DNA from: Thermoplasmata archaeon
GTDB lineage: Archaea; Thermoplasmatota; DTKX01; VGTL01
DNA length: 41,474 nt
Direction: 5' to 3'
Assembly (NCBI GenBank): GCA_038851035.1
Contig: JAWCLH010000010.1
Coordinates: 45,279-86,752, forward strand
Below, one piece after another: positions 5,112 through 37,585 of the stretch (position 1 is the stretch's first letter; every line of letters starts with the position of its first letter). A model generated the notes under the pieces. It saw only the letters and a program-made list of their open reading frames with translations. It made no database searches and had not been told where the DNA came from. The position numbers and the translations under genes were made by a program.

Positions 5112-5132
5112 TTGTAGCGCGAGCTACTACAA
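5112..5132 (-). terminator. Hairpin at the 3' end of the PKD gene
   Basis: TTGTAGC and GCTAC(T)ACAA pair around a GCGA loop, with one bulged base. The hairpin includes the TAG stop codon of the upstream gene (5127-5129) and precedes the tes gene by about 45 bases. It could help end the PKD transcript; no long T tract follows on the minus strand, so this is tentative. Confidence 0.35.
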
Positions 5133-8100
5133 TTCTGACCGCACTCCGGGTCCTTTCCTTCTTCGGGCTCCTAGCCAGAGGGCGAGCGGAGCACCAATAG
5201 CGGCTAGTGTAACTGTCTCAAACCCAGGAATAAAACCTTTCGGCGCGCCGCCGGGCTTCGCGGGCGGGGGTCTTTTTATAATCGTCACATTCATGCTCGC
5301 CACGGAGCTGCTGCCCGAGTCGTCTGTCACATTGAGCGTCACCACGTAAGTGCCCGGGATTAGGAATGCGTAGTTTACGATGGAACCAAAGGCTTGGTTC
5401 CCGTCTCCGAAGAACCAGGTGTAGTTCACAATTCTCCCGTCGGCGTCCGAGGAGCGGGAGCCGTCGAAGAGGAGGGTGTCGAGTACGTAGCCCGTGGCAT
5501 TGTTGCTGACGAGAGTGGCGATCGGGGGTCGGTTGTTGACAGTAACATTGAGCGTCGCTGATGAAACGGCCCCGTTGTCGTCAGTTACGCTCAGCCGGAC
5601 CGTGTATACGCCCGGGTGGTAGAAGATGTGGGAGACTATGGCTCCTGAGGACTGTGTCCCGTCGCCAAAGTCCCATGTGTACAGGATAATCTCGCCGTCG
5701 GCGTCGTAGGAGGCTGCCCCGCTCAGCCAGACGGGCACGAGCGTCTCCGTGGTCACGTCCTCGTCCGTCCTGGCCGTCGGCGGTATGTTCAGGACATAGA
5801 TCGTCTCGGTGGCGCTACCCGTGGCACCCCGGTTGTCCCTGACGGTCAGCAGAACGACGTATATCCCCGGCCGCGCGTACCTGTGAAAGACCTCAAGACC
5901 GCTCCCTAGCTCCCCGTCGCCAAAGCTCCAGGTATAGCCGTCCTCCGGGATTGTCCCGTCCACGTCCGAGGAGCCCGCGGCGCTAAGCCTGACGAGCTGG
6001 TTGGTGAACACGGTGGTCGGGGCGGCTGTGAGGACCGCCCGAGGCCGAATGTTGGGCGGTATTTCTGGAGTAATCGTCAGGTTGATGGTGGCTCTCGAGA
6101 ATGCCCCCTGGTCATCCGTGACGGTCAGCGTCACAATGAATAGCTTCGCGCTCTTTTCCTTGTGTGAGTAGACATGCGTCACCAGTGGGGAGAAGGATCC
6201 CGTGCCATCCCCGAAGTCCCATGTGTAGTTGACTATAGTGCCGTCGGGGTCGTAGGAGGAAGTACCGTCGAGCGTGATGGGTTTCCCGCTCTCCTGAACG
6301 CTCGCGGAGGGGTAGATGACCGCTACTGGAGGCTTATTCTCCCCCCGCCTCACCGTCACCTCTTTCGAGACCGAGGCTTTAGCCCCGAGGTCGTCCACCA
6401 CCGTCAGTGTTACGGTGTAACTCCCTGGGGCGGAATAGCGGTGGTTCGTCCTCGCGAGGGAGAGATAGGAGGAGGTCCCGTCCCCCCAGACCCACTCGTA
6501 CCTCCGGATGAACCCGGGGGCCGGGTCGTAGGACGCGGATGCGTCGAACTCGATGTGGTCCGATGTCGTGGGCTCGGTGGGCTGGTACGTGAACTCGGCC
6601 ACTGGCGGCGGGTTGTACTTGATCACTGTTACATTACGGAAGAAACTGTTCGTGCCACCATCGTCGTCTATCACGAGGAGGCTGACGCGGAATGTGTTGT
6701 TGGCTGTGTAGACGTGCTCCACCACCTCGCCCTCCCCGAATGAGCCGTCCCCGAAGTTCCAGCTGTAGGTTGTTATCGAACCATCCCTATCGTAGGAGCC
6801 GCTGGCGTTGAAGACCACCGTTTCGCCTTCGGAGGGGGTGGGTGGGGAGAAGCTGAAGAGGGCCACCGGGGGTGTATTCCTGACGGTGACGTTGAAGGTG
6901 TGGGACGCGGTGGCGCCGTCGTCGTCCCGGACCGTGAGGGTCACGGAGTAGGTTCCCCTCTTTGTCCACGAGATGATGACCTCCGGGCCGAAGAGCAGCT
7001 GGCCCCCGCCGAGCTCCCAGGTGAAGTTGACGAGATAGCCGTCCATGTCGTGGCACTGGCTCGCGTTCAGGCTCACGTTCTGCAGGGTGTCCACGATGAT
7101 ATCGGGGAAGAATGCGTAGGGGGGGCGGTTGAGGACGGTTACGGTGAAGCTGTCGCGGGCGGTGGCCCCGTCGTTGTCCGTCACTATCAGGACGACCCTG
7201 TAGACGCCGTTGTTGGTGTAGAAGTGGTGGGTGAAAGCGCTGCTCGAGAAGCCCCCATCGCCGAAGTCCCAGGAATAATTCACGATGAGGCCATCGGGGT
7301 CGAAGGACCGGGTGGCGTCGAAGGTTATGTTCTCGTACGTGAGCACGATTGTATCCAGTCCAGCGACGGCGGTGGGGGGTATGTTGCCGACGCGAACAGT
7401 GGTCTTTGCCGAGCCGATTGCCCCGTCGTCGTCAACGACCACGAGGGTTACCTCGTAGGAGCCGTTGGCTACGTCGAACCTGTGCGTGGTTTTCACGCCG
7501 TATTCCTTCCCCCCTCCGGGGAATATCCATGTGTAGTTGGAGATATAGCCATCCAGATCATATGATTTGTAGCCGTCGAAGGTGATGCTCTCGGAGGTGT
7601 TTATATGATTGGTGGAGACATTTATCTTCGCCACGGGCTCCCTGTTGAAGACGGTTATGTAGATTGTGGTTGAGTTGGTCGCGCCGTCGTCGTCGGTCAC
7701 GGTCAGCTGGACGGGGTAGATGCCATCCTGCTTGTAGACCGTGGTGACCTTCTTGCCGTTCAGCGTGGTCCCGTTGTGAAGAGTCCACTTGGCGGCGGTG
7801 ATGTATCCGTCGAGGTCGGTGGAGTTTGCTGAGTCGAGAGTGACGATGTCGAGGGTCTGGACAAGCTGGTCGTAGGCGACCGCAATGGGCGCTCTATTGT
7901 AGATGGTAATCTGAATTTCGTCTGTGTCTGTTCCGCCGGCGTCGTCCGTGACGAGGAGCGTCACATTATATACCCCGTCATTACTCCAAAAGTGGCTGGC
8001 CTCCCAGCCCCTCGAGTCGTTCCCGTCGTCGAAGCTCCAGAAGCAGGCTGTGATATTGCCATCGGGGTCGCTGGAGTTGTAGGCGAGGAAGGTGATGTCC

Positions 8101-8609
8101 TGGAAGGTGAGGGCGCTGGCGCTTACATTCTGCGGCAGGGTGATTCTGGCCGTGGGGGCAAGGTTGATGAATACCTGCGCCCGGGCGGAGTTGTTGGTCT
8201 CGTTCTCCTCCGATATCGAGTTAGTTGGGTCGACGACCACGTATATCCAGTGGTATCCATTAGAGACGCCGACGGTGCTCCAGTTCACCCTCGCAACGCC
8301 GGAACCGTTGGAGGGGACGTTGTCAATTATCTGGTCAGAGCCTATGGTCGTGCCACCGCCCGAGGGGTCCCCGTCGTAGAACCTAACCCTAACGGATGTG
8401 GCATTGGCCCCGCCCATGTTCCAGACCGTAGCGTTTATCTGGATCGTCTCGTTGAGCAGGGGCTTGTTCTTCGAGAATGCTATGTCTTCCTCGCTCAGGG
8501 TCAGGTCCGGGGCTGCCCTTTCACCACGCGCCGCGGGCGTTATGAATGGAAAAAGAAGCTGCCCCGCAAGAGCCATGCACAAAATCGCCGCAACGCTTCT
8601 TTCATACAT
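5127..8609 (-). CDS. Secreted CARDB + 11x PKD repeat protein with PGF-CTERM-like anchor
   Basis: 1160 aa. A signal peptide (residues 1-30, hydrophobic core ILCMALAGQLLFPF) is followed by one CARDB domain (about 33-150, ending SEENETNNSARAQV). Eleven consecutive PKD domains follow; their YxWDFGDG and VTLTVTDDDGA blocks recur roughly every 85-90 residues, and repeats 2, 3 and 5 have degenerate FGDG blocks. The C-terminus has IPGFETVTLAAIGAPLALWL then ARRRK, matching the layout of the PGF-CTERM signal that archaeosortase A cleaves. Many N-x-S/T sites suggest N-glycosylation. PKD domains are extracellular beta-sandwich modules used in adhesion, S-layer or carbohydrate contact; no enzyme domain is present, so this is probably a long surface stalk or adhesin. 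The gene ends in TAG with a second TAG directly after it. Confidence 0.88.
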   Translation of the reverse strand: MYERSVAAILCMALAGQLLFPFITPAARGERAAPDLTLSEEDIAFSKNKPLLNETIQINATVWNMGGANATSVRVRFYDGDPSGGGTTIGSDQIIDNVPSNGSGVARVNWSTVGVSNGYHWIYVVVDPTNSISEENETNNSARAQVFINLAPTARITLPQNVSASALTFQDITFLAYNSSDPDGNITACFWSFDDGNDSRGWEASHFWSNDGVYNVTLLVTDDAGGTDTDEIQITIYNRAPIAVAYDQLVQTLDIVTLDSANSTDLDGYITAAKWTLHNGTTLNGKKVTTVYKQDGIYPVQLTVTDDDGATNSTTIYITVFNREPVAKINVSTNHINTSESITFDGYKSYDLDGYISNYTWIFPGGGKEYGVKTTHRFDVANGSYEVTLVVVDDDGAIGSAKTTVRVGNIPPTAVAGLDTIVLTYENITFDATRSFDPDGLIVNYSWDFGDGGFSSSAFTHHFYTNNGVYRVVLIVTDNDGATARDSFTVTVLNRPPYAFFPDIIVDTLQNVSLNASQCHDMDGYLVNFTWELGGGQLLFGPEVIISWTKRGTYSVTLTVRDDDGATASHTFNVTVRNTPPVALFSFSPPTPSEGETVVFNASGSYDRDGSITTYSWNFGDGSFGEGEVVEHVYTANNTFRVSLLVIDDDGGTNSFFRNVTVIKYNPPPVAEFTYQPTEPTTSDHIEFDASASYDPAPGFIRRYEWVWGDGTSSYLSLARTNHRYSAPGSYTVTLTVVDDLGAKASVSKEVTVRRGENKPPVAVIYPSASVQESGKPITLDGTSSYDPDGTIVNYTWDFGDGTGSFSPLVTHVYSHKEKSAKLFIVTLTVTDDQGAFSRATINLTITPEIPPNIRPRAVLTAAPTTVFTNQLVRLSAAGSSDVDGTIPEDGYTWSFGDGELGSGLEVFHRYARPGIYVVLLTVRDNRGATGSATETIYVLNIPPTARTDEDVTTETLVPVWLSGAASYDADGEIILYTWDFGDGTQSSGAIVSHIFYHPGVYTVRLSVTDDNGAVSSATLNVTVNNRPPIATLVSNNATGYVLDTLLFDGSRSSDADGRIVNYTWFFGDGNQAFGSIVNYAFLIPGTYVVTLNVTDDSGSSSVASMNVTIIKRPPPAKPGGAPKGFIPGFETVTLAAIGAPLALWLGARRRKGPGVRSEL

Positions 8610-12759: not shown

Positions 12760-13176
12760 TTACCCCCCTACAAAGGAGTGGAGACCGGCGGGGAGGAAAG
12801 AGACCAGAACAGTACATATACTAAGTAGGCAGGCGGTCAATGCCAGCCACCGCGCCAGCGTCTTCCTCCCCTCGATTCGCGCCCCGAGCGCGCCCGTCAG
12901 CGCCAGAAAGAGAAGGAGCATTGCGGTCTCTTTGGGGTCCCAGGACCAGGGCGAGCCCCAGGCCGACCAGGCCCAGAGCATACCAGTCACGAGGCCAAGA
13001 AGGACCAGCAACCAAGCCGCCACCCCGGCGAGAACGGCGCGCCTCCGGGGTATTTTGAGGAAAAGTAGGACGGTATATGCGAAGGTCATCACATGGCCCG
13101 CAATCGCTATGGGCGGGTGCACGAAGAGCATAACCGAGTCGAGCTCGTGCGGCAACCTCAGCCCCCTCCCCTCCAT
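12760..13176 (-). CDS. Minimal CcsA/CcmC-like haem-handling membrane protein (WWD domain)
   Basis: 138 aa with four predicted membrane helices (about residues 17-40, 48-70, 82-103 and 107-130). Between helices two and three lies the Trp-rich block WAWSAWGSPWSWDPKET, the WWD haem-handling signature of the cytochrome c assembly family (CcmC, CcmF, CcsA/ResC). The first helix starts with His-Pro-Pro (FVHPP), and the last ends GLHSF, which fit the paired axial histidines of that family. Family members usually exceed 200 residues, so this is close to the bare core. It is the last gene of the operon and overlaps the upstream cytochrome gene by 19 bases, consistent with delivering haem to the two CXXCH proteins encoded before it. 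Confidence 0.78.
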   Translation of the reverse strand: MEGRGLRLPHELDSVMLFVHPPIAIAGHVMTFAYTVLLFLKIPRRRAVLAGVAAWLLVLLGLVTGMLWAWSAWGSPWSWDPKETAMLLLFLALTGALGARIEGRKTLARWLALTACLLSICTVLVSFLPAGLHSFVGG

Positions 13177-14429
13177 CCGCTTCCGCCCTCATGGCCCATG
13201 AGGCCCCGGAGGAATCTGAAATCGGTCCCGATGCTGATGGCGTGGATTATCACCATTACGAGCGCCACGAGCGTGGCGATTCTGTGAATCCAGCGCCAGC
13301 CCCCCGCCCCGAGTATTCTGGTCATCCATCTCCTCAGCAGCCCGTTGACCGAGGCCACGCCCATCCATATCGCGGATGCCCAGCCTAGCAGAATGTAGAA
13401 GTTCCATGAAACTGAGCTGTAGGGTCCAAGGACGAGTAGCGCACCATGGTAAACTGCTAGCGCTAGAAGGAATAAGGATATCGCGCAGTGCAGCCTCACC
13501 CTCACCCTCCCGCCCCTCCTGACGAAGCCGAGGGCGAGCGACGCAATCAGGAGCAGAAGCGAGAGAATTCCCGTCGCCCTGCCCGCGAGCCTGAGGGGGC
13601 TCCCTGAGCCTCCGGGGCCGGAGGGGGGTGGGACCACCCTCACCGCTATCCCCATCGCATCAGGCGAGCCCGTGGCGTTCTTCCATGAGAGGGTGAGAAG
13701 ACCGTTGCCCATCGTCCCGCCGCCCCGCAACGCTCTAGCGCCCAGCACCGCCTCCTCCCCTGCGTCGAGCGCCCCGGGCGAGAATTCAATATCCACCACT
13801 CTCTCGAGACCTGGGGGCAGGGTCACCTTGAGTTCTGTGACAGGCGAGAGGGCCCTGAGTCTCAGCTCCCTCAGGGCCTTCGAGCCAGCCTCGAGCTTGA
13901 GCTCCCCACATGAAGCGACGAGAGAGACCGGTCTCACGGAGACGGCGCGTGGCTCGACGACCGCCCAGAGGCCCTCGTCGCCCGAGCCGACGTCGATGTG
14001 GGTGTAATGGAGCCGGCAGAGGAAGGTCACATTGACCATCAGCACTCCGGTCTCATTTCCAGTGTCGACGCGCCAACTTGCCCGGAGCCGCCCGCCGGTG
14101 TCGTTGAGGCCTCCGAGGGAGAGCTGGGGGAATTCGCCGGTGCCTAGCCCACCGGGGCCGGAGAGAGAGACCGCCGCCTTCGCTCCCCTGAGCTCGTAGC
14201 CCCCGGCATGGGAGACAGTCAGGTTCACCGTGAAATGGCTCCCCGGGGGCCATACAGGGGGGCACTCTATTTCAACTCCGGGCGGTGTCAGGACGTAGCC
14301 CCCGGCCGGGCTGCCGCCCGAGTGGCAGCTCCCGCACCTCGTCGCGGCCGGCGAGAAGGCGGAGGCTGCAATGGCGCTTAGGAGGAGGCCCGCGGCGACG
14401 GCGAGAATTCCGGCGTTCGGCCATCGCAT
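13158..14429 (-). CDS. Membrane cytochrome: N-terminal CXXCH haem c fused to bis-haem b (ferric-reductase-like) domain
   Basis: 423 aa. A signal/anchor helix (residues 5-24) is followed at once by CGSCH, a single covalent haem c site, and two extracytoplasmic beta-sandwich regions (about 45-270). Four membrane helices fill the C-terminal part (about 282-400). Helix two has His-13 residues-His (RLHC...VYHG) and helix four again His-13 residues-His (WIHR...IIHA), the spacing that holds two b haems in ferric reductase and NOX membrane domains. No FAD or NADPH domain is attached. The product could pass electrons between the membrane and the outside through two b haems and one c haem. Its ATG overlaps the previous gene's TGA by one base, and its end overlaps the CcsA-like gene. 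Confidence 0.78.
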   Translation of the reverse strand: MRWPNAGILAVAAGLLLSAIAASAFSPAATRCGSCHSGGSPAGGYVLTPPGVEIECPPVWPPGSHFTVNLTVSHAGGYELRGAKAAVSLSGPGGLGTGEFPQLSLGGLNDTGGRLRASWRVDTGNETGVLMVNVTFLCRLHYTHIDVGSGDEGLWAVVEPRAVSVRPVSLVASCGELKLEAGSKALRELRLRALSPVTELKVTLPPGLERVVDIEFSPGALDAGEEAVLGARALRGGGTMGNGLLTLSWKNATGSPDAMGIAVRVVPPPSGPGGSGSPLRLAGRATGILSLLLLIASLALGFVRRGGRVRVRLHCAISLFLLALAVYHGALLVLGPYSSVSWNFYILLGWASAIWMGVASVNGLLRRWMTRILGAGGWRWIHRIATLVALVMVIIHAISIGTDFRFLRGLMGHEGGSGWRGGG

Positions 14430-16657
14430 CAGCCCACCTCCCGCTTCTCCCCCTTTTCCTCTTCCACTCTTCTCTCCATCCTCTCCTCTGGCTTCCCCTT
14501 CCGCTTTTTCCTTTCCTTTTCACCGGCGCGCGCGGGCCGCTCGCGCCCGCCCGCGAGCGCGTAAACGATTCCGAGGGAGCCGGCGAAGAGAATGGCAAGT
14601 CCAACGAGGGCGGGAGGAGCCCCCACTTCCTGGGCCGCTGTCGAGGCGGCGGAGGCCTCCACGAGAATGGTCACGGCGACACGGGCCTCACGGGCCCCGT
14701 CGCTGACGGTCAGGGTGACGATATAGGCCCCGGTCCTTGCGTATGTGTGCCTGACGATTGGGTCGGTCGTGAGGAGGGTCGCGGAGCCGTCTCCGAAGCT
14801 CCAGAGAAAGCTCAGAGGGTCACCCTCTGGGTCCCAGGAGGGCCCCGCGTTAAAGGTCGCCTCCCTCCCTGCAACAACCCTGTTTCCTTCTATAAAGAAC
14901 GCCGCCACGGGGGGCAGGTTGGCGGGCGTGGGTGGCGGCTCCTCTAAGTAAATTTTGAAGGGGGGAGAGACCTGCTCCACGGTCCCGTTCCAATCGTCGG
15001 AGGCCCTGATTATCAGGACCGCCGCCCCAGCGTGGACCCCGGGGACAGTCCATAGATAGCTCCCGTTGGGCTCGAGCCCTGCAGCAACGGGCTCCTCGCC
15101 CGCGCCCGGCGAGGGCCTGAAATCGATTCGAACCGTCACTTTCCCATGCCCTCCGGACGCACTCCATGAGAGCTCCACCACGTCCCCCTCCTCGAGCTCG
15201 CTGCCCTCGGGGGGAAAGGAGGCCGCGAGAGAAAGGGGCGGCGCAATTGAGAATGGCGAGGACAAAGAGCTCGCGCTCCGGCCAGCGCCATCCATTACCG
15301 TGGCGCACAGCACGCATGTATCAGACACGAGCTCTGGAGCGGGTAGCTCGAGAGTGCCGGAGGCTGGGAGGCCCGACACCAGCTCCTGAAACGGCCCTTC
15401 TGTGCCGTTGCCGGAGATGGATAGCGACGTGCTCAGATTCCCCTCCCCGCCCCAGGCGCTCCAGCTGACGTTGATTGTGTCGCTCCAGTAATACCTCTCC
15501 CAGCTCGAGGGAGAGAGCAGGGCGATTTCGGGCCTAACGCCTCCGGTGGCTCCGGTTGTGAATGACCACGCAAAGGTTCTAGCCATGTAGTTTCCGGGCT
15601 CCGAGAGATCCTTGACTTCAGTGCCCAGCTCGCACTCATACAGCGTCTCGGGGTGCAGAGGCTCGTGGGCGACGCTCATTGTAATGCTGTCCGGGCTCCA
15701 CGAGAAGGACATTCCGCCCGGGCTTGGTAGCGTCTTGAGCGCAAGCTCGGCGCTCGCGCGGTGCACCGGCTCGGAGAATCGGACGATGAGCGGCGAGCCC
15801 GCGCTGACGTTGACTGCGCCGTCGGGTGGCAGAACATCGAGCACCGACGGTGGCGTGGAGTCGATTGCGAAGGGTCCTCCCGGCGGGCTCCAGAAGCCAA
15901 GCCCCTCCCTGTCCTTTATGAAAGCCCTGAGCCTCGCGGCCTCCGCGTTGATTCGGGGTAGGGTCCAAACAAGGCTGCGCTGGAGGGCGGGGGCGGAGCC
16001 GATACTCTCGTTGGAGTGAACGAAGCCGTCGGTTGAGAAAAAGATTTGCACCGTGCACCCCTCCAACTCCTCGTCACTGCAGTTCCATGTGACGGTCCAG
16101 GCGCTCCCCCCGCTCAGCCTTCTCCCCTCGAGCTCCGCCCCAAGCGCAATTGAGGGCGGAGAGTTTTGTGCGGGAGCCTCCACGACGATTTCAGGCGGTG
16201 GGGAATATGAGTCTGTGAAGCGACATTCGAAGTGAGGGTTCACGGCCTGCGCGGTGATGATAAAGGCGTCCGTCCCGCTCTTTGCAGCGGTGATTTCCCA
16301 CGAAGCCTTCGCGGTGGCCCCGCGCGCGAGGCTCCCGAGCTCGACCGTAGGGACCGCTACCCTGAACCTCCCGTCCCTCGAGCGGAGGGTCGCGGAGACG
16401 CCCTCCAGGGTCCCGTACTCGGCCTTGCTGCACTCGTTCCTTATGACAATGGTCACGTTGCGCGGACTGCTAGCGTCGAGGCTGGAGGGAATCGATTCCT
16501 CAGCGGCGCCCTCGACGATGTCCAAGTACTGCCAGTAACCGCCGCCGTGGCACTCGGCGCAGGGGTTGTCGGACTTCGGCGCCATCTGAGGCGCCAGCGA
16601 GGCCACCACCAGTAGCGCGAGCGCGACGGAGATGATGATGACTGTTGCTTTGCGCAT
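14429..16657 (-). CDS. Membrane-anchored monohaem c-type protein with Ig-like and PKD domains
   Basis: 742 aa. An N-terminal membrane helix (residues 4-24) is followed by CAECH (Cys33-His37), a single haem c site close to the membrane. Beta-sandwich domains follow: one at about 60-165 (NVTIVIRNEC), one near 175-270, a Big_5-like Ig domain (about 272-370, DSTPPSVLDVLPPDGAVNVS), two more Ig-like stretches, and one PKD domain (about 590-670, FLWSFGDGSA). A C-terminal membrane helix (PALVGLAILFAGSLGIVYAL) precedes a highly charged Lys/Glu/Arg tail, probably cytoplasmic. It is first in an operon with the haem c/haem b fusion and the CcsA-like protein. Role is inferred to be extracellular electron transfer or surface haem carriage; the electron partner is not known. 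Confidence 0.78.
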   Translation of the reverse strand: MRKATVIIISVALALLVVASLAPQMAPKSDNPCAECHGGGYWQYLDIVEGAAEESIPSSLDASSPRNVTIVIRNECSKAEYGTLEGVSATLRSRDGRFRVAVPTVELGSLARGATAKASWEITAAKSGTDAFIITAQAVNPHFECRFTDSYSPPPEIVVEAPAQNSPPSIALGAELEGRRLSGGSAWTVTWNCSDEELEGCTVQIFFSTDGFVHSNESIGSAPALQRSLVWTLPRINAEAARLRAFIKDREGLGFWSPPGGPFAIDSTPPSVLDVLPPDGAVNVSAGSPLIVRFSEPVHRASAELALKTLPSPGGMSFSWSPDSITMSVAHEPLHPETLYECELGTEVKDLSEPGNYMARTFAWSFTTGATGGVRPEIALLSPSSWERYYWSDTINVSWSAWGGEGNLSTSLSISGNGTEGPFQELVSGLPASGTLELPAPELVSDTCVLCATVMDGAGRSASSLSSPFSIAPPLSLAASFPPEGSELEEGDVVELSWSASGGHGKVTVRIDFRPSPGAGEEPVAAGLEPNGSYLWTVPGVHAGAAVLIIRASDDWNGTVEQVSPPFKIYLEEPPPTPANLPPVAAFFIEGNRVVAGREATFNAGPSWDPEGDPLSFLWSFGDGSATLLTTDPIVRHTYARTGAYIVTLTVSDGAREARVAVTILVEASAASTAAQEVGAPPALVGLAILFAGSLGIVYALAGGRERPARAGEKERKKRKGKPEERMERRVEEEKGEKREVG

Positions 16658-16876: not shown

Positions 16877-19800
16877 TCACTCCCCCTCGCCGGGACATTC
16901 GGTCCCTTCGCTATCCTTGCCCCACTGCTCTGTATCCCCGGCTTCCAGCTCTGCCTCCGAGTATTTCTCAATTAAAGAGATTGTCTCCCGCAGCACCTCC
17001 TCCTTCTTAGCCATATCCATGAGCGCACCTGTGATGAGACCATCCCTCTCGAGCCTGGCCGAGACCTCCCATCCTATCTCGGCGAGGCAGCCCGTCAGGA
17101 GGAGCTTCCCGGGCGCCGCAACGAATATCTCCAGTATATTTTTCGTGTGGTTCGCCGAGACTTTGATGACTGTACGCCTCCTCCCCTCCTGCGTGACGCC
17201 GTAGAACCAGGCCTCGCGTATGGTCCCAGTATCGTCGACGAATTCACGAACGGGTCTTAGCAGCCTCTCGCGAAACACTTCCTTCGCTATGGCATAGGAC
17301 CGCTCTATATTCCGGACATAATAGATTTTGCTGTCCTGCTGCGTCAGCTCTTCGCTGATGAGCCGGCGCAGCATGGCTGTGTTGATGTTCTCGTCAGTGT
17401 AGAAAAGGGGACAGATCACCTCAACCTTCTTCTTTTTCAGGAGATCGGACTGGAGGTTCCCTTCCGCGTCCTTATAGCGCACCACCCCCTCAATGAAGCC
17501 CTCGGTGCATATCAGTGGCTCCAGATAGAGCGCAACCGTTTTTTCACGCCCGGGTTCACGAGCCCGAAGTCGAACTTTCCCTTCTTCATCGGGTACTCCG
17601 GCTCAACCTTAACTAGCCTGAAAACATTTTCATCATAAATGGGTTCGAACTCCACACCGGTGATGACTGAGCTCGATGCGTTCCTTACTGCAACCTTAAC
17701 CTTGATGTATCCCTGGAAGAACTCCACCGCGGAGTGCATCTCGATCGTCTCCTTTCTGGATGGCGGTGCGAGCTCCGAGACCGCGTCGAAGAGGGGCAGG
17801 AGCATTTTCTTCACACCTGTGAAGGGCGCCAGGACGCCGTCCCATGTTTCGACCAGGGCAGAGTACTGAGCCTCGATGTTCCGGAGGACATCCCTCATGA
17901 TTTCGCGATATTCGCCCGGGGGGTGGCCCTTGACCACAACTGCCAGGAATATTTTCTTCCCCCTCTCGAGTATGATTTCAACGTCCCCATACTGCAGGCT
18001 CCCCAGCTCGCCCTCCTCCGCCAGCGACTCTTTCACGAAGTGCTGAATCGCCGTCAACATTCCTATGAGCAGCTCCGGGACCCTCGGCGAGATTCGGCGA
18101 GTGTCATGAGCGATGAGGCGACCATCGCGATAGACAAGGAAAACCTCCTCAACGACGAATCCCATCGCGCCTGTGGTTCTTACCGCCTTTCTTTCCACAG
18201 GCGAGAGCGCCACTCCACGGTGTTCCACAGGGCTCGACGCTGTATGGACCTCCCCCGCGGGGGAAAGAGGTAACTGGGCGCCTCCTTCCGGTGCCCTGCC
18301 CCTCGCTCTCTCGAACCTCCCCCAGCCCAGGACGGCCAATACGAGGGTGAGGCAGAGGAGAAGGAGCACTGCCGCACCGACGAGGGGACCGTAATCGGAG
18401 AACCAGCCCGTCGTGGCCACGGACCTCTCCAGAATTCTGATCTCCACCGTCTGATTGTCAGAGGTGTAGAAGTCACTGACGCGGAGCGTCACGATGTATT
18501 TCCCCGCTTTCAGGTATTTATGCGTGGCTCTCGGGCTGTCTGCGCCCGTGCCGTCCCCGAACTCCCAGTGGTAGCTCAGGTTATCGTCGGGGTCGGGGTC
18601 AGAGGAGCCAGTGGCGTCAAAAGTCACATTTTCCCTCACCCTGAAACGCTCCTGGTGGATGGGGAGGGAAATGCAGGCGCTCGGGGGCCTATTCTGGTTC
18701 AGCACTGTCACGATCCAAGTGTAGTTGAGCTCGGCACCAGTAGTGTGCATCGAGACCGTCACATTGTGCTCCCCCGCGTCCGTGTAGGAGGGCTGGAAGG
18801 TGAAAGAGGAGCCTTCCTCCCCGGCCCGTAGAGCGCCATCGAGGAGCCATCGATACTCCAAGGGGCGCTTGAGGGGGTCGCGAACCTCTATCGCGAAGGT
18901 CAGGCTGGAGTTCTCCGCGAGCTGAATTCGGGCGGCTGGCTCCACGGAAACGAGCTCGATCCCGTACCTGTTCCTGAAGCTCACGTTTCCCATCGCGAGC
19001 TCGGAGTAGGATTTCCCGTCCCACGCCCTCGCAATAATTTTGTAGGGTCCGTCATCGAAGCACGTGGTGTCTATCCTGAGGCTACAAGATTGGTTTACGT
19101 CAGCCTCGAGCCACTCCCCGCCGTCTATCTGAACAAAAACGGTGATGGTGTCCAGGAACTCTATATCGCTGGCATTGCCCGAGATGGTGACCATGCCCGA
19201 GAGGGTCTCTCCCTCCGCAAGATGGTTTATGGAGACCCTAGGGGGGTAGTTCACAGCCCCTCTTCTCAGAGAGAATCCGTCGGAGGTGACGTAGTCCGAC
19301 CAGAGGCCCGTGCCATTCATGGCCCTGGCGATGAAGTAGTACTTGAGCACATAAATGAGCGTCAGGTTGCGCACCGTGACGCTGCTCTCGCTGGTCTCCG
19401 TGAAGGGAACTATGCTTGGTGAATTCTTTGATGTCCCTAGACCATACTCGTATTTTATCACCCATGACTCCTCATCGGTGAAGGCCAGAATGGCGTAGAG
19501 GCTGGTCGTGTCCGAGGTCTCGGCACCGTCGTCGATTACCAGACCTACAGGGGGAGTGGTGTCAACGGTGAACTCCATGAATTCCGACCATGGGCCCCAG
19601 GCCCAGTCGTCGTTCGCCTTCGCCCTCCACAGATATGTTTTCTCGCTCGCAAGCTTGTAGGGGACAGGGACCGTGTAGCTCGCCTCCTCTCCGGAGGTGT
19701 AATTGATAGCGGTCCAGCCCGCCGCATTTGCGAACTGGTGCGTCCTGTGGATGGGGGCGGTAGCTCCCTTATAGTATACCTCGAGCTCGAACCATATCGT

Positions 19801-21366
19801 TCCCCCGTCTGGGTCCGTGGTACGCAGCGTGAATGTGGGAGTAGGGGTGGTAATGTATATGCAATTCTCTGGAGAAAGGAGGTTCGGGGCCAGCGGAGGG
19901 GAGTTGAAAACATAGGCGATCGTGAGGTTGCTCAGCTGGACTACGCCCTTCGCCTTAGACCTCACTCTGATCGGAATCTCAACCAGCCCCTGCGCATCGC
20001 TCTTGGCGGCCTCGACCGCCGCGCTCAGAGCGTCTGTAAAGCAGACACGGCACGGGGCTGCACCGAGGGTCCCGTTAAGCCTCCACTCGGCCGTCCCGTC
20101 GGCCCCGATGTCCACGGAGCAGTTCTCAGGATTGTGCCAGACGGTGACATCGCCACTAATGTCCGTGAGCACGGGAGTCCCGTTGGGGGCCGAGGTTGGT
20201 GCCACGAAGCTTACGTTATAAATCAGGCTCGAGTCCTCTCCAGTGAAGTTGAGCGGGGCGCCGTTGGATAGCTGCGAGAAGGTCTGCTGGCCGGAAGCGA
20301 GCCTTGCGCCGATGGTCACATTGAAACCGGTCCTGGGGATACTGAAGTTCCACCTCAGCGCCGCGGACTGCACCACGCCGCCGAATCTCATCACGGGCGA
20401 TGTCATGTAGCCGTTGGGATAGTACTGGTCAGTCCAGAAAAAGTCAAAGTCCGCGGTGTGGCCCCTCCCTGAGTTCCCATCCATCACTGCCAGCCCCACC
20501 TGAAGGGGCGGTGAGCCGGAGAAGGTCTTGCTCAGATTTGCGGCACTGAAGAGCGTCCAGTTTTCGCCGTTCACTGAATAGTGGAATCGCCAGGTTCCGG
20601 AGCCGATTTTCTCTATCTGGAGCCATACGCTCACGTTGCTGAGCGATGTGTTGACCTGTGTGGACACCCCCCCGGTCGTGCTCACCCTAATTATCCCGGG
20701 GCCCTCGGGGAGCATTCCGTATGAGAATTCTATCCACTCTATGCTCCTGGTGAACACCACGATGCCCGCTCTCTGTAGGGGGTGCGAGGGGGCGCTGGTG
20801 AGCCTGGTGATGACCCTCCAGCCATAGCCGCCCGACATGTTCTGCCAGAGGAGGCTCCCGTTTGTCTGGCTTCCCCAGAATGTGGTGTTGCTGCTGGCGA
20901 CCACCCTGAGGTGGCCGGGGACCTGATTGCCCACGTCGTACGGTGCGGGTGGGTTGAGCCACCTCCACCTCTGGTCCAGCTCCCCTACATCGAAGCCGTC
21001 GTCGTAGGGCTTTGCTAGAGTTACGTTCCCCGGCGTGGTGTTGATATCCAGGCGGTAAATGGGGCTGAACTCCTCAAAATCGGCTTTCTCCGTATGGACG
21101 AAGCTCTCATTCTACGTATTGGGGCCGCCGCTCACGTCCATCTCCGCGCTGAGGATGGATATCCTCTTAGGGAGACGGAGCGAGATCCGCTGGTCCCCCG
21201 GCAGCGAGAATACCAAATTTGCCTCACTCGAGCCGTCGGAGAATGTCTTCAGCTCGACCCTCTTCTGGCTCTCGGTTTTGCCTCCGCTCGGGGAAGGCAC
21301 AAGAGCCGTAAGCATCACCGCAACTATCATTATTGCTCCTGTTGCAGCACAGGGGCGTGGAGACAT
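16877..21366 (-). pseudogene. Receptor-like PKD/Ig membrane protein with cytoplasmic roadblock-like domain, interrupted by TAG and a -1 frameshift
   Basis: Read through two lesions, this is one gene of about 1,490 codons. It starts at ATG 21366 with a signal peptide (AIMIVAVMLTALVPSPS). An in-frame TAG lies at 21112-21114 (GGPNT-stop-NESFVHTEK), after which the same frame continues to 17512. The extracellular part has a concanavalin-like region (WRFHYSVNGENW), Ig/fibronectin-like domains and one PKD domain (YHWEFGDGTG). A membrane helix (LVGAAVLLLLCLTLVLAVLGW) is followed by a cytoplasmic roadblock-like domain (EEVFLVYRDGRLIAHDTRR) and a beta-sandwich. At six A residues (17539-17544, T on the plus strand) a -1 shift is needed to go from NPGVKK into TVALYLEPLICTEG and on to a TGA at 16877. 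Without the shift the product ends a few codons later. The lesions could be gene decay, consensus errors or recoding; the domain content strongly supports one original protein. Confidence 0.7.
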
Positions 21367-35077: not shown

Positions 35078-37585
35078 TTACCTTGTCGTGCGCCTTTTCC
35101 ACGCAATAGTCAGAGCGACGGTGGCGAGAATAACCACCGCCCACATCCAGAAAAGAAATGTTTCGCGCGAGATTCTAACGGCCTGCACGGTTATTTCAAA
35201 GCTCTTCTCGGCCAGAGCGCCGTCGTCGTCGCGCACCGCCACCCTGACCAGATATTTCCCCGGCTTTGTGAAAGTATAATTGATAACTGTGCCGTGGATG
35301 GTCCTGTTCTCAATCAGCCAGCTCACAGACACGACGCAGCCGTCCAGGTCGAAGGAGCCTGAGGCGTCTAGAAATGCTCTCTCGTCGGCCATGAGCTTTT
35401 GTTCGTATTTGAGCCCAATCACAGGGCCTCTGTTCCGCACATTTATCGTTATGTTGGTCACGTTCTCATCAAAATCATCGTCTATGACTCTCAGTTTTAC
35501 TTCATAGGTCCCGTCGTCCCTGTACTCGTGGCTCACGTTTTCGCCCACCGCAGTGGTTCCATCGCTAAAGTCCCATATATAGAGCTTTACGGTACCGTCC
35601 GCGTCGCTCCCCGAAGCGGTGAGATTGATTTTCTCGAGTGTGAGGGGGGAGGTGGAGGAGGCGTTTATCGCGCCCTGCGGCGGGATGTTTTCGACGATAA
35701 TCTGCTTTCTGGCGATGTTGCTCGCCGCGCTGTCATCATCTACGACATAGAGCGTGGGCCAGAATGTGCCTTTGGTCCGGTAGCGGTGGGTCGGGTTGGG
35801 CTCATCGCTCGTGGAGCCGTCTCCAAAGTCCCAGAAGTACCGCGATATTGCCCCGTCCATGTCGAAGGCCTCGGGCGTGAAGGCGATGTCGTCGAGAATG
35901 GTGGCGGTCGTCAGGGACATATTGAAGTCGGCCAGGGGGCCGCGATTCATGACATAAATCTTGAACTCGGTCGAGTTGGACGCGCCATCGTCGTCCCAGG
36001 TGGTGAAATGGACGGTATATATTCCCGCCTTGGAGTAGCTGTGGACAGGGTTGGGTATATCATTGATATTTCCATTACCAAAGTTCCAATATATTTTAGT
36101 AATGAAACCGTCAATGTCATATACAGAAATATTAAAATAAATGGGTTCATTAGTTAAATAAATAAAGAATAAGGAGCTACTTTCAATTACTGGGGGTCTA
36201 TTGTTGATTGTTAAATTAATATAGCACCAATTGCTTGTTAACCCATATTCGTCACGGACTTTTAATTTTGCTATATAGTTACCCATCTTATGATATAAAT
36301 GTTTAATCGATTTGTCGTTAATCCAATTTGAATTATTTCCATCGCCAAAATCGAAAAAAAGTTCGTTAAAAATAGTGATACCTTGAAAAGTAATTGGTTC
36401 AATTGTCAGTGCATTATCTGGCCATACTATTATCTTTGGCAAATCTATTATTACGGTGACGGCAAGATTATTATTATTCTCATTTATTTCATTAAAATAA
36501 TTATCAGGGTCAATAGTTAATAAACAAATATGTGATAATTGATTTTGATCCCTAAATTTAAGATTGAGATTATATAGACTAGCGTTATCTAAATCATACG
36601 ATGAAATATTAATATAGGTTATATATAAATCGCACTCGATGAGAATTGTAACATTAATAGAGGTCAATTTCCAGTTCAATATTGTTAATGGTATTATGGC
36701 TTCTTTTTTAGATGGAGTATATACTTTACTCGGACCTTGTAGAACTAGATCGAAATTGTAGCAATATTCAGAAATATGGAATTGAGAAAATAATTCATCA
36801 TCAAATTTTGATGGCTTCCATGTTTTTATTGTCGAAAAGTTGTATAATATTTTGTTGAACATCATTTTTTTAAGGGTCTCCAACGAAATTGGGATACTAC
36901 TTGGATACGAGTTACCGAGAATATGTATAACATTTTCTTTATTAAGTTGAATTTCTATTCCGATACAGTTATCTAAAATCATTGCATATAGAATACCTAA
37001 ATCAGAATCTGCTCCGGGGCCCCAGTCCGAGTTGAAACGAATTTCATCAATTAACCTGACCCCTTTTTTTGACCAACCCATAATAGAATCTATCCAATGA
37101 CTTTCATATATCGTGAGCCGTAAGAATGGTTGTGTGGATAACAAGCCAAATTCCGGAAAAGTAAATCGGAGTTTTAGATCATACGAACCCAATAAAAAAT
37201 TATCTAACAATAGACCATTATTAATATCCCTAGATGATAGTATAATGAATAAAATTAAGTCGGTGTCATTATGGCACATTTTCATTTGAATTGATAAATT
37301 GATAGTTTCTTTTGGATTTGAAGTGTTTCGGGCTAGAATATTTTCTACTAGTGCATATTGGATGTTGTTCCACTCATTATTTGTATTTATTCCATCGAAA
37401 GTAATTGTTTTAATAGGGTAATGTATATAATATGTATTGATTTTCTGATTTCTATCTCTGGATATGTTTAGGGTGGCCAGCGAGATAATTGAAATATTAA
37501 TGATAAAGAAGATAATGATTAAAATATATGAGGAATGTAATAATGATTGAGCTTTTTTTAATTGAACACTAACTCTACCTTCCAT
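35078..37585 (-). CDS. Secreted, membrane-anchored protein with CBM9-like N-terminus, CARDB-like and PKD domains
   Basis: 835 aa. An N-terminal membrane helix or signal (YILIIIFFIINISIISLATL) is followed by a CBM9/DOMON-like region (about 58-230, ITFDGINTNNEWNN). A CARDB-like module lies at about 285-395 (FNEINENNNNLAVTV). About five PKD-type domains follow (FDFGDGNN, YWNFGNGN, YFWDFGDGS, YIWDFSDGT and a degenerate last one). A C-terminal helix (FLFWMWAVVILATVALTIAW) ends in KRRTTR. Codon use is sharply AT-rich up to about residue 510 (base 36055) and GC-rich after it, with the change falling inside a PKD domain. Its ATG is two bases after the stop of the transglutaminase gene, so the two are cotranscribed. 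It may bind surface polysaccharide or protein; the role is inferred. Confidence 0.78.
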   Translation of the reverse strand: MEGRVSVQLKKAQSLLHSSYILIIIFFIINISIISLATLNISRDRNQKINTYYIHYPIKTITFDGINTNNEWNNIQYALVENILARNTSNPKETINLSIQMKMCHNDTDLILFIILSSRDINNGLLLDNFLLGSYDLKLRFTFPEFGLLSTQPFLRLTIYESHWIDSIMGWSKKGVRLIDEIRFNSDWGPGADSDLGILYAMILDNCIGIEIQLNKENVIHILGNSYPSSIPISLETLKKMMFNKILYNFSTIKTWKPSKFDDELFSQFHISEYCYNFDLVLQGPSKVYTPSKKEAIIPLTILNWKLTSINVTILIECDLYITYINISSYDLDNASLYNLNLKFRDQNQLSHICLLTIDPDNYFNEINENNNNLAVTVIIDLPKIIVWPDNALTIEPITFQGITIFNELFFDFGDGNNSNWINDKSIKHLYHKMGNYIAKLKVRDEYGLTSNWCYINLTINNRPPVIESSSLFFIYLTNEPIYFNISVYDIDGFITKIYWNFGNGNINDIPNPVHSYSKAGIYTVHFTTWDDDGASNSTEFKIYVMNRGPLADFNMSLTTATILDDIAFTPEAFDMDGAISRYFWDFGDGSTSDEPNPTHRYRTKGTFWPTLYVVDDDSAASNIARKQIIVENIPPQGAINASSTSPLTLEKINLTASGSDADGTVKLYIWDFSDGTTAVGENVSHEYRDDGTYEVKLRVIDDDFDENVTNITINVRNRGPVIGLKYEQKLMADERAFLDASGSFDLDGCVVSVSWLIENRTIHGTVINYTFTKPGKYLVRVAVRDDDGALAEKSFEITVQAVRISRETFLFWMWAVVILATVALTIAWKRRTTR

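Follow-up and report, generated by a model that had tools for sequence, protein, structure and literature searches.

A conserved archaeal operon joins two putative monohaem cytochromes c to a stand-alone minimal haem-handling protein

We analyzed a 41,474-nucleotide stretch of DNA from a Thermoplasmata archaeon (the window), whose source genome measures 2.69 Mb and is 99% complete. The window carries a real and conserved operon of three genes, A, B and C, which probably encodes a self-contained conduit for electrons across the membrane, together with a dedicated haem-attachment factor consisting of one protein. The ingredients are each known, namely reelin-type monohaem cytochromes c, FRD cytochromes b and WWD haem-handling proteins; what is new here is a reduced stand-alone haem-handling protein (C, referred to as mini-C) with dedicated cytochromes. 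The earlier note on this DNA stated that no described system has this make-up, and this holds within the literature searched, which took in few subscription papers and no preprints: we found no account there of a mini-CcsA or of the A-B-C trio.

Three open reading frames were present on the minus strand where the earlier note had placed them, in the order A, B, C (Table 1). A and B share one base within TGATG, which holds the A stop and the B start. B and C overlap by 19 bases when C starts at ATG 13176; an alternative start at TTG 13155, two bases 3' of the B stop, gives C a length and an N terminus that match those of its relatives. Chance open reading frames are ruled out as the source of A, B and C by conservation, and a chimaeric assembly at the operon is unlikely because it sits mid-contig in a block syntenic with the genome G001. 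The two features whose loss from relatives the earlier note would have taken as refutation are both conserved: the Cys and His of CXXCH are invariant in 17 B and 12 A-type sequences, and A, B and C are adjacent in G000, G030, G036, G050 and G058. Elsewhere in the window are very large PKD-rich surface proteins (5127-8609, 17512-20934 and 35078-37585), the first with about 61% identity to its G001 counterpart, and possible mobile-element remains (222-2626) with one ORF resembling an integrase core (222-788) and another resembling a tyrosine recombinase (1724-2626), both recognized by eye.

Table 1. Positions of the operon genes and their predicted features in the window
Feature	Position	Strand	Remarks
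Gene A, 742 aa: putative exported monohaem cytochrome c domain, Ig/PKD stalk, C-terminal anchor	14429..16657	-	
CXXCH (CAECH) of A, residues 33-37	16547..16561	-	Invariant in 12 A-type sequences
Stalk of A, residues 266-665: Big_5, Kre9/KNH-like and PKD domains	14663..15862	-	Pfam
C-terminal membrane helix of A, about residues 683-703, then charged tail	14549..14611	-	Sequence
Gene B, 423 aa: putative haem c domain, second beta domain, four-helix cytochrome b	13158..14429	-	
CXXCH (CGSCH) of B, residues 32-36	14322..14336	-	Invariant in 17 B sequences
Four-helix region of B, residues 278-400, with H314, H328, H382, H396	13230..13598	-	Model; ligands invariant
Gene C, 138 aa (131 aa from TTG 13155): stand-alone mini WWD haem-handling protein	12760..13176	-	PF01578
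WWD motif of C, residues 68-83 (WAWSAWGSPWSWDPKE)	12928..12975	-	
P-His1 of C, H20	13117..13119	-	Invariant; aligned with CcmF by profile
P-His2 of C, H133	12778..12780	-	Invariant; aligned with CcsBA and CcmF

The predicted anatomy of A agrees with the membrane-anchored monohaem protein on an Ig/PKD stalk that had been described: a signal-like segment precedes CAECH, Pfam matches Big_5 (E 6e-15) and PKD (E 6e-18), and a C-terminal helix follows. The stalk and the C-terminal anchor would hold the haem domain of A well away from the membrane. Profile comparison established homology between the N-terminal domains of A and B (98.7% probability, E 1.6e-16) and aligned their CXXCH motifs as well as a second His (H142 in A, H144 in B). 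This second His is invariant in each family together with the C, C and H of CXXCH in the alignments used, is absent from two divergent B copies (L044 and L028), and is plausible as a distal haem ligand. Being apparently exported and bearing a conserved motif, the CXXCH domains of A and B are candidate c-type cytochromes with putative covalent haem. The model NF041895 (Reelin-N fold/choice-of-anchor V domain) reached 14.2 bits against a cut-off of 42.

We scanned the source genome for CXXCH-type sites, considering ORFs of at least 60 aa. Among the 89 such DNA sites, only those of A and B had a hydrophobic segment shortly upstream in a plausible gene; two further ORFs flagged by the script as exported CXXCH proteins were set aside on inspection. 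The raw count was below that of a reversed-pattern control, so most CXXCH sites in this genome are not cytochromes. Stand-alone 208-aa haem-domain proteins resembling the B N terminus were seen at L168:7742-8365 and L169:2855-3478, with no mini-C in the stretch examined.

In B, the fusion of CXXCH to a four-helix domain with two HX13H pairs was found as the earlier note had read it, and all four membrane His (H314-X13-H328 and H382-X13-H396) are invariant in the 17 B sequences. The charges of the short loops, read by the positive-inside rule, place the first His of each pair (H314, H382) towards the inside and the second (H328, H396) towards the outside. The predicted structure comprises two beta domains and four helices at moderate confidence (pTM 0.56), low in the CXXCH segment, and a flavin domain is absent from the domain set. 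Pfam gave no significant match on B, PF01794 included; two B homologues scored 30.8 and 29.9 bits with PF01794 against a cut-off of 28. A fold search with the whole B model yielded only poorly superposed, generic Ig-like matches, and a PDB sequence search gave nothing convincing; we therefore claim no solved relative for B. Judged from its sequence, the ligand pattern is that of the ferric reductase domain superfamily, with four His in two helices at a spacing of 12-13; the haem ligands of NOX2 are His 101/115 and 209/222 (PMC3591440). An apparent split version was observed at L166:5226-8556 and L167:4698-7838, where the gene for a large CXXCH surface protein precedes one for a distinct four-helix protein of 170 aa that has HX11-13H pairs; these genomes have CcmE.

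The minimal haem-handling protein of the earlier note is C, which matches PF01578 (Cytochrom_C_asm) over the cut-off (E 3.8e-17). H20, H133 and most of the WWD core are invariant in 13 C sequences, and WGSPWSWDPKE is conserved. A mini-C profile matched solved structures of CcmF, CcsA, CcsBA and CcmC at E 6e-11 to 3e-6, with the CcmF and CcsA matches spanning nearly the whole of mini-C. The structure of C was predicted with high confidence (mean pLDDT 86) as four membrane helices and a short last helix bearing H133; the best PDB match of this model was CcmC, at E 0.008 only. H20 lies ahead of the first core helix and H133 beyond the last. The positive loops of C place the WWD motif and both His outside. 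H20 and H133 are its only conserved His, and no His within a membrane helix is conserved, so that mini-C has no counterpart of the inner TM-His haem site known from CcsBA. Structural work has identified a four-helix WWD/P-His core common to CcsA, CcmF and CcmC, and the predicted features of C (131-138 aa) are those of this core alone: four helices, the WWD motif and two outer His. In a phylogenetic tree, all mini-C proteins formed a single clade (100/99) separate from CcsA, CcmF and CcmC, of which CcmF was the closest (89/90).

We then surveyed 390 Thermoplasmata-phylum (Thermoplasmatota) genomes, mostly drafts, in which absences rest on filtered searches. B was found in 33/390 and mini-C in 12/390, the latter at 132-190 bits in open frames of 110-171 aa. 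The other genomes reached at most 66.5 bits with the mini-C model, with long CcmF or CcmC types among the matches listed; mini-C is thus a sharply separate class (132 bits or more versus 67 or less). All 12 mini-C genomes contain B (Fisher p 1.6e-14), and CcmE was found in 14 of the 21 B genomes without mini-C versus 0/12 with it (p 1.6e-4), genomes being counted in both tests without correction for relatedness. No CcmE was detected in 10 mini-C genomes by a small search or in all 12 by the phylum search; the CcmE of G016 was missed by the phylum search and found by the smaller one. Seven B genomes had neither a mini-C nor a CcmE match, six of them, G016 included, having long CcmF-type proteins; G071, also among the seven, is 69% complete.

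Other maturation genes were likewise sought. Ten mini-C genomes tested for ResB gave no PF05140 match over the cut-off, and thirteen genomes tested for CcmB, G390 included, gave none of full length. Mini-C is the sole PF01578 protein in each mini-C genome searched, besides a second mini-C in G012, G036 and G058, and C of the window is the only protein of the PF01578 superfamily in its genome. A search of named genomes with the mini-C alignment returned mostly bacterial CcsA; a Propionibacteriaceae match (L081) was rejected as a mini form, its open frame being 344 aa.

Mini-C is tightly linked to its presumptive substrates. All 19 copies with readable flanks adjoin or are fused to a CXXCH gene. 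In Thermoplasmatota, 14/14 readable copies adjoin a B gene or B fragment, and one more lies at a contig end. The second mini-C in G012 and in G036 each adjoins a second B gene, and the mini-C and B pair seems to have duplicated together in these genomes. G001 and G041 have A and B but no mini-C, and G009 and G010 have B and C but no A. Stand-alone haem-domain proteins are also present away from mini-C in G050 and G058, and to serve these, C would at times need to work in trans.

Mini-C also occurs in the phylum that contains the Bathyarchaeota record BE326-BA-RLH, in 5/398 genomes. In four of the five it lies directly 3' of an A-like CXXCH gene, without B. In G711 (L256:1498-2631), an A-like CXXCH domain and mini-C form one 378-aa protein, in which WSWDLKE replaces WSWDPKE. 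The C protein of the window groups in the tree with the Bathyarchaeota-type proteins (97/88), which suggests that mini-C may have been transferred between the two phyla.

G001, which belongs to the same family as the source genome of the window and is its closest relative, allowed a direct comparison. The two share a collinear block of glnA, A, B, a coiled-coil gene, a neighbor gene and a PKD gene. In G001, ccmF, ccmB, ccmC and ccmE lie between glnA and A and there is no mini-C; in the window, two other genes lie between glnA and A, and mini-C follows B. Mini-C and the ccm genes thus replace each other within a syntenic block, and the simplest reading of this replacement is that either machinery may serve the same cytochrome pair. 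The earlier note had understated C, since the genome holds no other protein of this superfamily, searches found neither CcmE nor ResB, and G001 has a full ccm set at this place.

These results point to the following model. B would be a dihaem membrane cytochrome b of the ferric-reductase type, carrying a monohaem c domain on a beta-sandwich at the outer face, and the haem c domain of A could reach on its Ig/PKD stalk towards or through the S-layer. C would present haem at the outer membrane face and attach it to the CXXCH of A and B, as System I would do in G001. The electron path would start at a cytoplasmic or quinol donor, run through the two b haems of B to its c haem and then lead to A. 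The transmembrane conduit without a flavin domain put forward in the earlier note is therefore well supported in its anatomy, with an outer haem c domain, four invariant His and positive-inside loops, and its direction and partners are what we infer. In G041 (L033:1-10024), A and B lie 96 bases 3' of a molybdoenzyme gene set and no mini-C is present there; the set encodes molybdopterin-binding, 4Fe-4S, ethylbenzene-dehydrogenase-type (haem subunit) and nitrate-reductase-delta (chaperone) domains. This one genome suggests that the A-B pair may serve an outside-facing molybdoenzyme.

How much C does by itself is the point on which other explanations turn. Unlikely, yet the strongest of these, is that C handles haem for A and B as one part of a larger, unrecognized archaeal maturation system, in which haem export and the reduction of the CXXCH cysteines would fall to other, non-homologous proteins. 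To our knowledge, the c-cytochrome maturation systems described so far all need a cysteine reductant, and C is devoid of the TM-His pair, the beta cap and the large outer domains of CcsBA and CcmF; both points favor such a system. However, the loci examined have no further gene in common next to A-B-C, and the natural fusion in G711 joins a CXXCH domain to C only. That no haem exporter, beta cap or cysteine reductant was identified also counts against single-protein attachment by C, which we nevertheless prefer. In its strongest form, mini-C alone would be a complete c-type maturation system of about 131 residues, able to deliver haem to the outer side and link it to CXXCH, and would replace the multi-gene System I in at least one archaeal lineage; this we put forward tentatively, our confidence falling just short of even.

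We consider it improbable that C is instead a haem-bearing electron-transfer subunit, whose two outer His would bind a haem in electron exchange with the CXXCH domains. The WWD motif is diagnostic of haem handling, no other maturation protein was found in mini-C genomes, a ccm cluster replaces mini-C in G001, and C is without a second haem site inside the membrane for carrying electrons across. These observations outweigh, in our view, the constant position of C beside or fused to a CXXCH protein, the pairing in Bathyarchaeota without B, and the proposal that CcmF is itself a cytochrome (PMC10663686). Very improbable is a role of the operon unrelated to haem, with the CXXCH motifs as metal sites or disulphides of surface proteins: the beta-sandwich folds without classical cytochrome c helices, the generic Ig-like fold matches and a raw genomic CXXCH count not above control would fit it, but the exported position, the conserved second His, the linkage to ccm genes in G001 and to the WWD protein elsewhere, and the reelin-fold monohaem cytochromes c already proposed in Ignicoccus (PMC4429474) speak against it.

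A natural protein cut down to the WWD/P-His core would show what this core can do alone, and mini-C would offer a small system for studying haem transport and attachment. If single-protein attachment by C is confirmed, the operon would rank with the smallest routes known for making a c-type cytochrome; the known prokaryotic maturation systems range from two proteins (or one large fused protein) to about eight. In a 2015 survey of archaeal cytochromes c, System I was the only maturation system encountered in archaea, System II having been probed with ResB only; the survey also listed 17 monohaem cytochromes from species with at most one maturation protein (PMC4429474). Mini-C could explain monohaem cytochromes c in archaea without Ccm genes, an open point of that survey (PMC4429474). 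Bathyarchaeum tardum was set aside as a cultured test organism, no c-type cytochromes having been detected in it (PMC10477458). The operon suggests that uncultured Thermoplasmatota and Bathyarchaeota have simple electron-transfer chains at their surface.

The reelin-N-like monohaem cytochrome c of Ignicoccus (Igni_0759), modeled on a reelin-N domain, resembles A and B in having an exported CXXCH ahead of a predicted beta-sandwich and a candidate second His; it is set beside them by description, and unlike in the operon neither a fused cytochrome b nor a mini-C is described for it (PMC4429474). Mini-C shares the WWD and WxWDPKE motifs, P-His1/P-His2 and four core helices with CcsA/ResC (CcsBA, System II; E 7e-9 to 7e-7), but has about 131 aa against about 270-400 aa for CcsA (900 aa for fused CcsBA), and differs from System II in that no ResB/CcsB partner was found, no helix His is conserved and its clade is separate. 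CcmF of System I has the same core and is both the best solved profile match (E 6e-11) and the nearest clade in the tree. CcmC, also of System I, shares the core and, like mini-C, is without TM-His (PMC10663686). In contrast to System I, however, no CcmE, large CcmF or full-length CcmB was found in mini-C genomes. B resembles the ferric reductase domain superfamily (NOX, FRE, YedZ/MsrQ, STEAP) in its four haem His, arranged as two pairs in two helices, but is without the flavin/NADPH domain and has a cytochrome c domain fused on. In eukaryotic proteins of the CYBDOM/FRRS1 type, an outer beta-sandwich domain is fused to a dihaem transmembrane cytochrome b; the likeness to B is one of layout only, as the cytochrome b family differs and no covalent haem occurs there. 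Most short bacterial ferric reductase domain forms do not retain all four His, whereas B keeps them all (PMC3591440).
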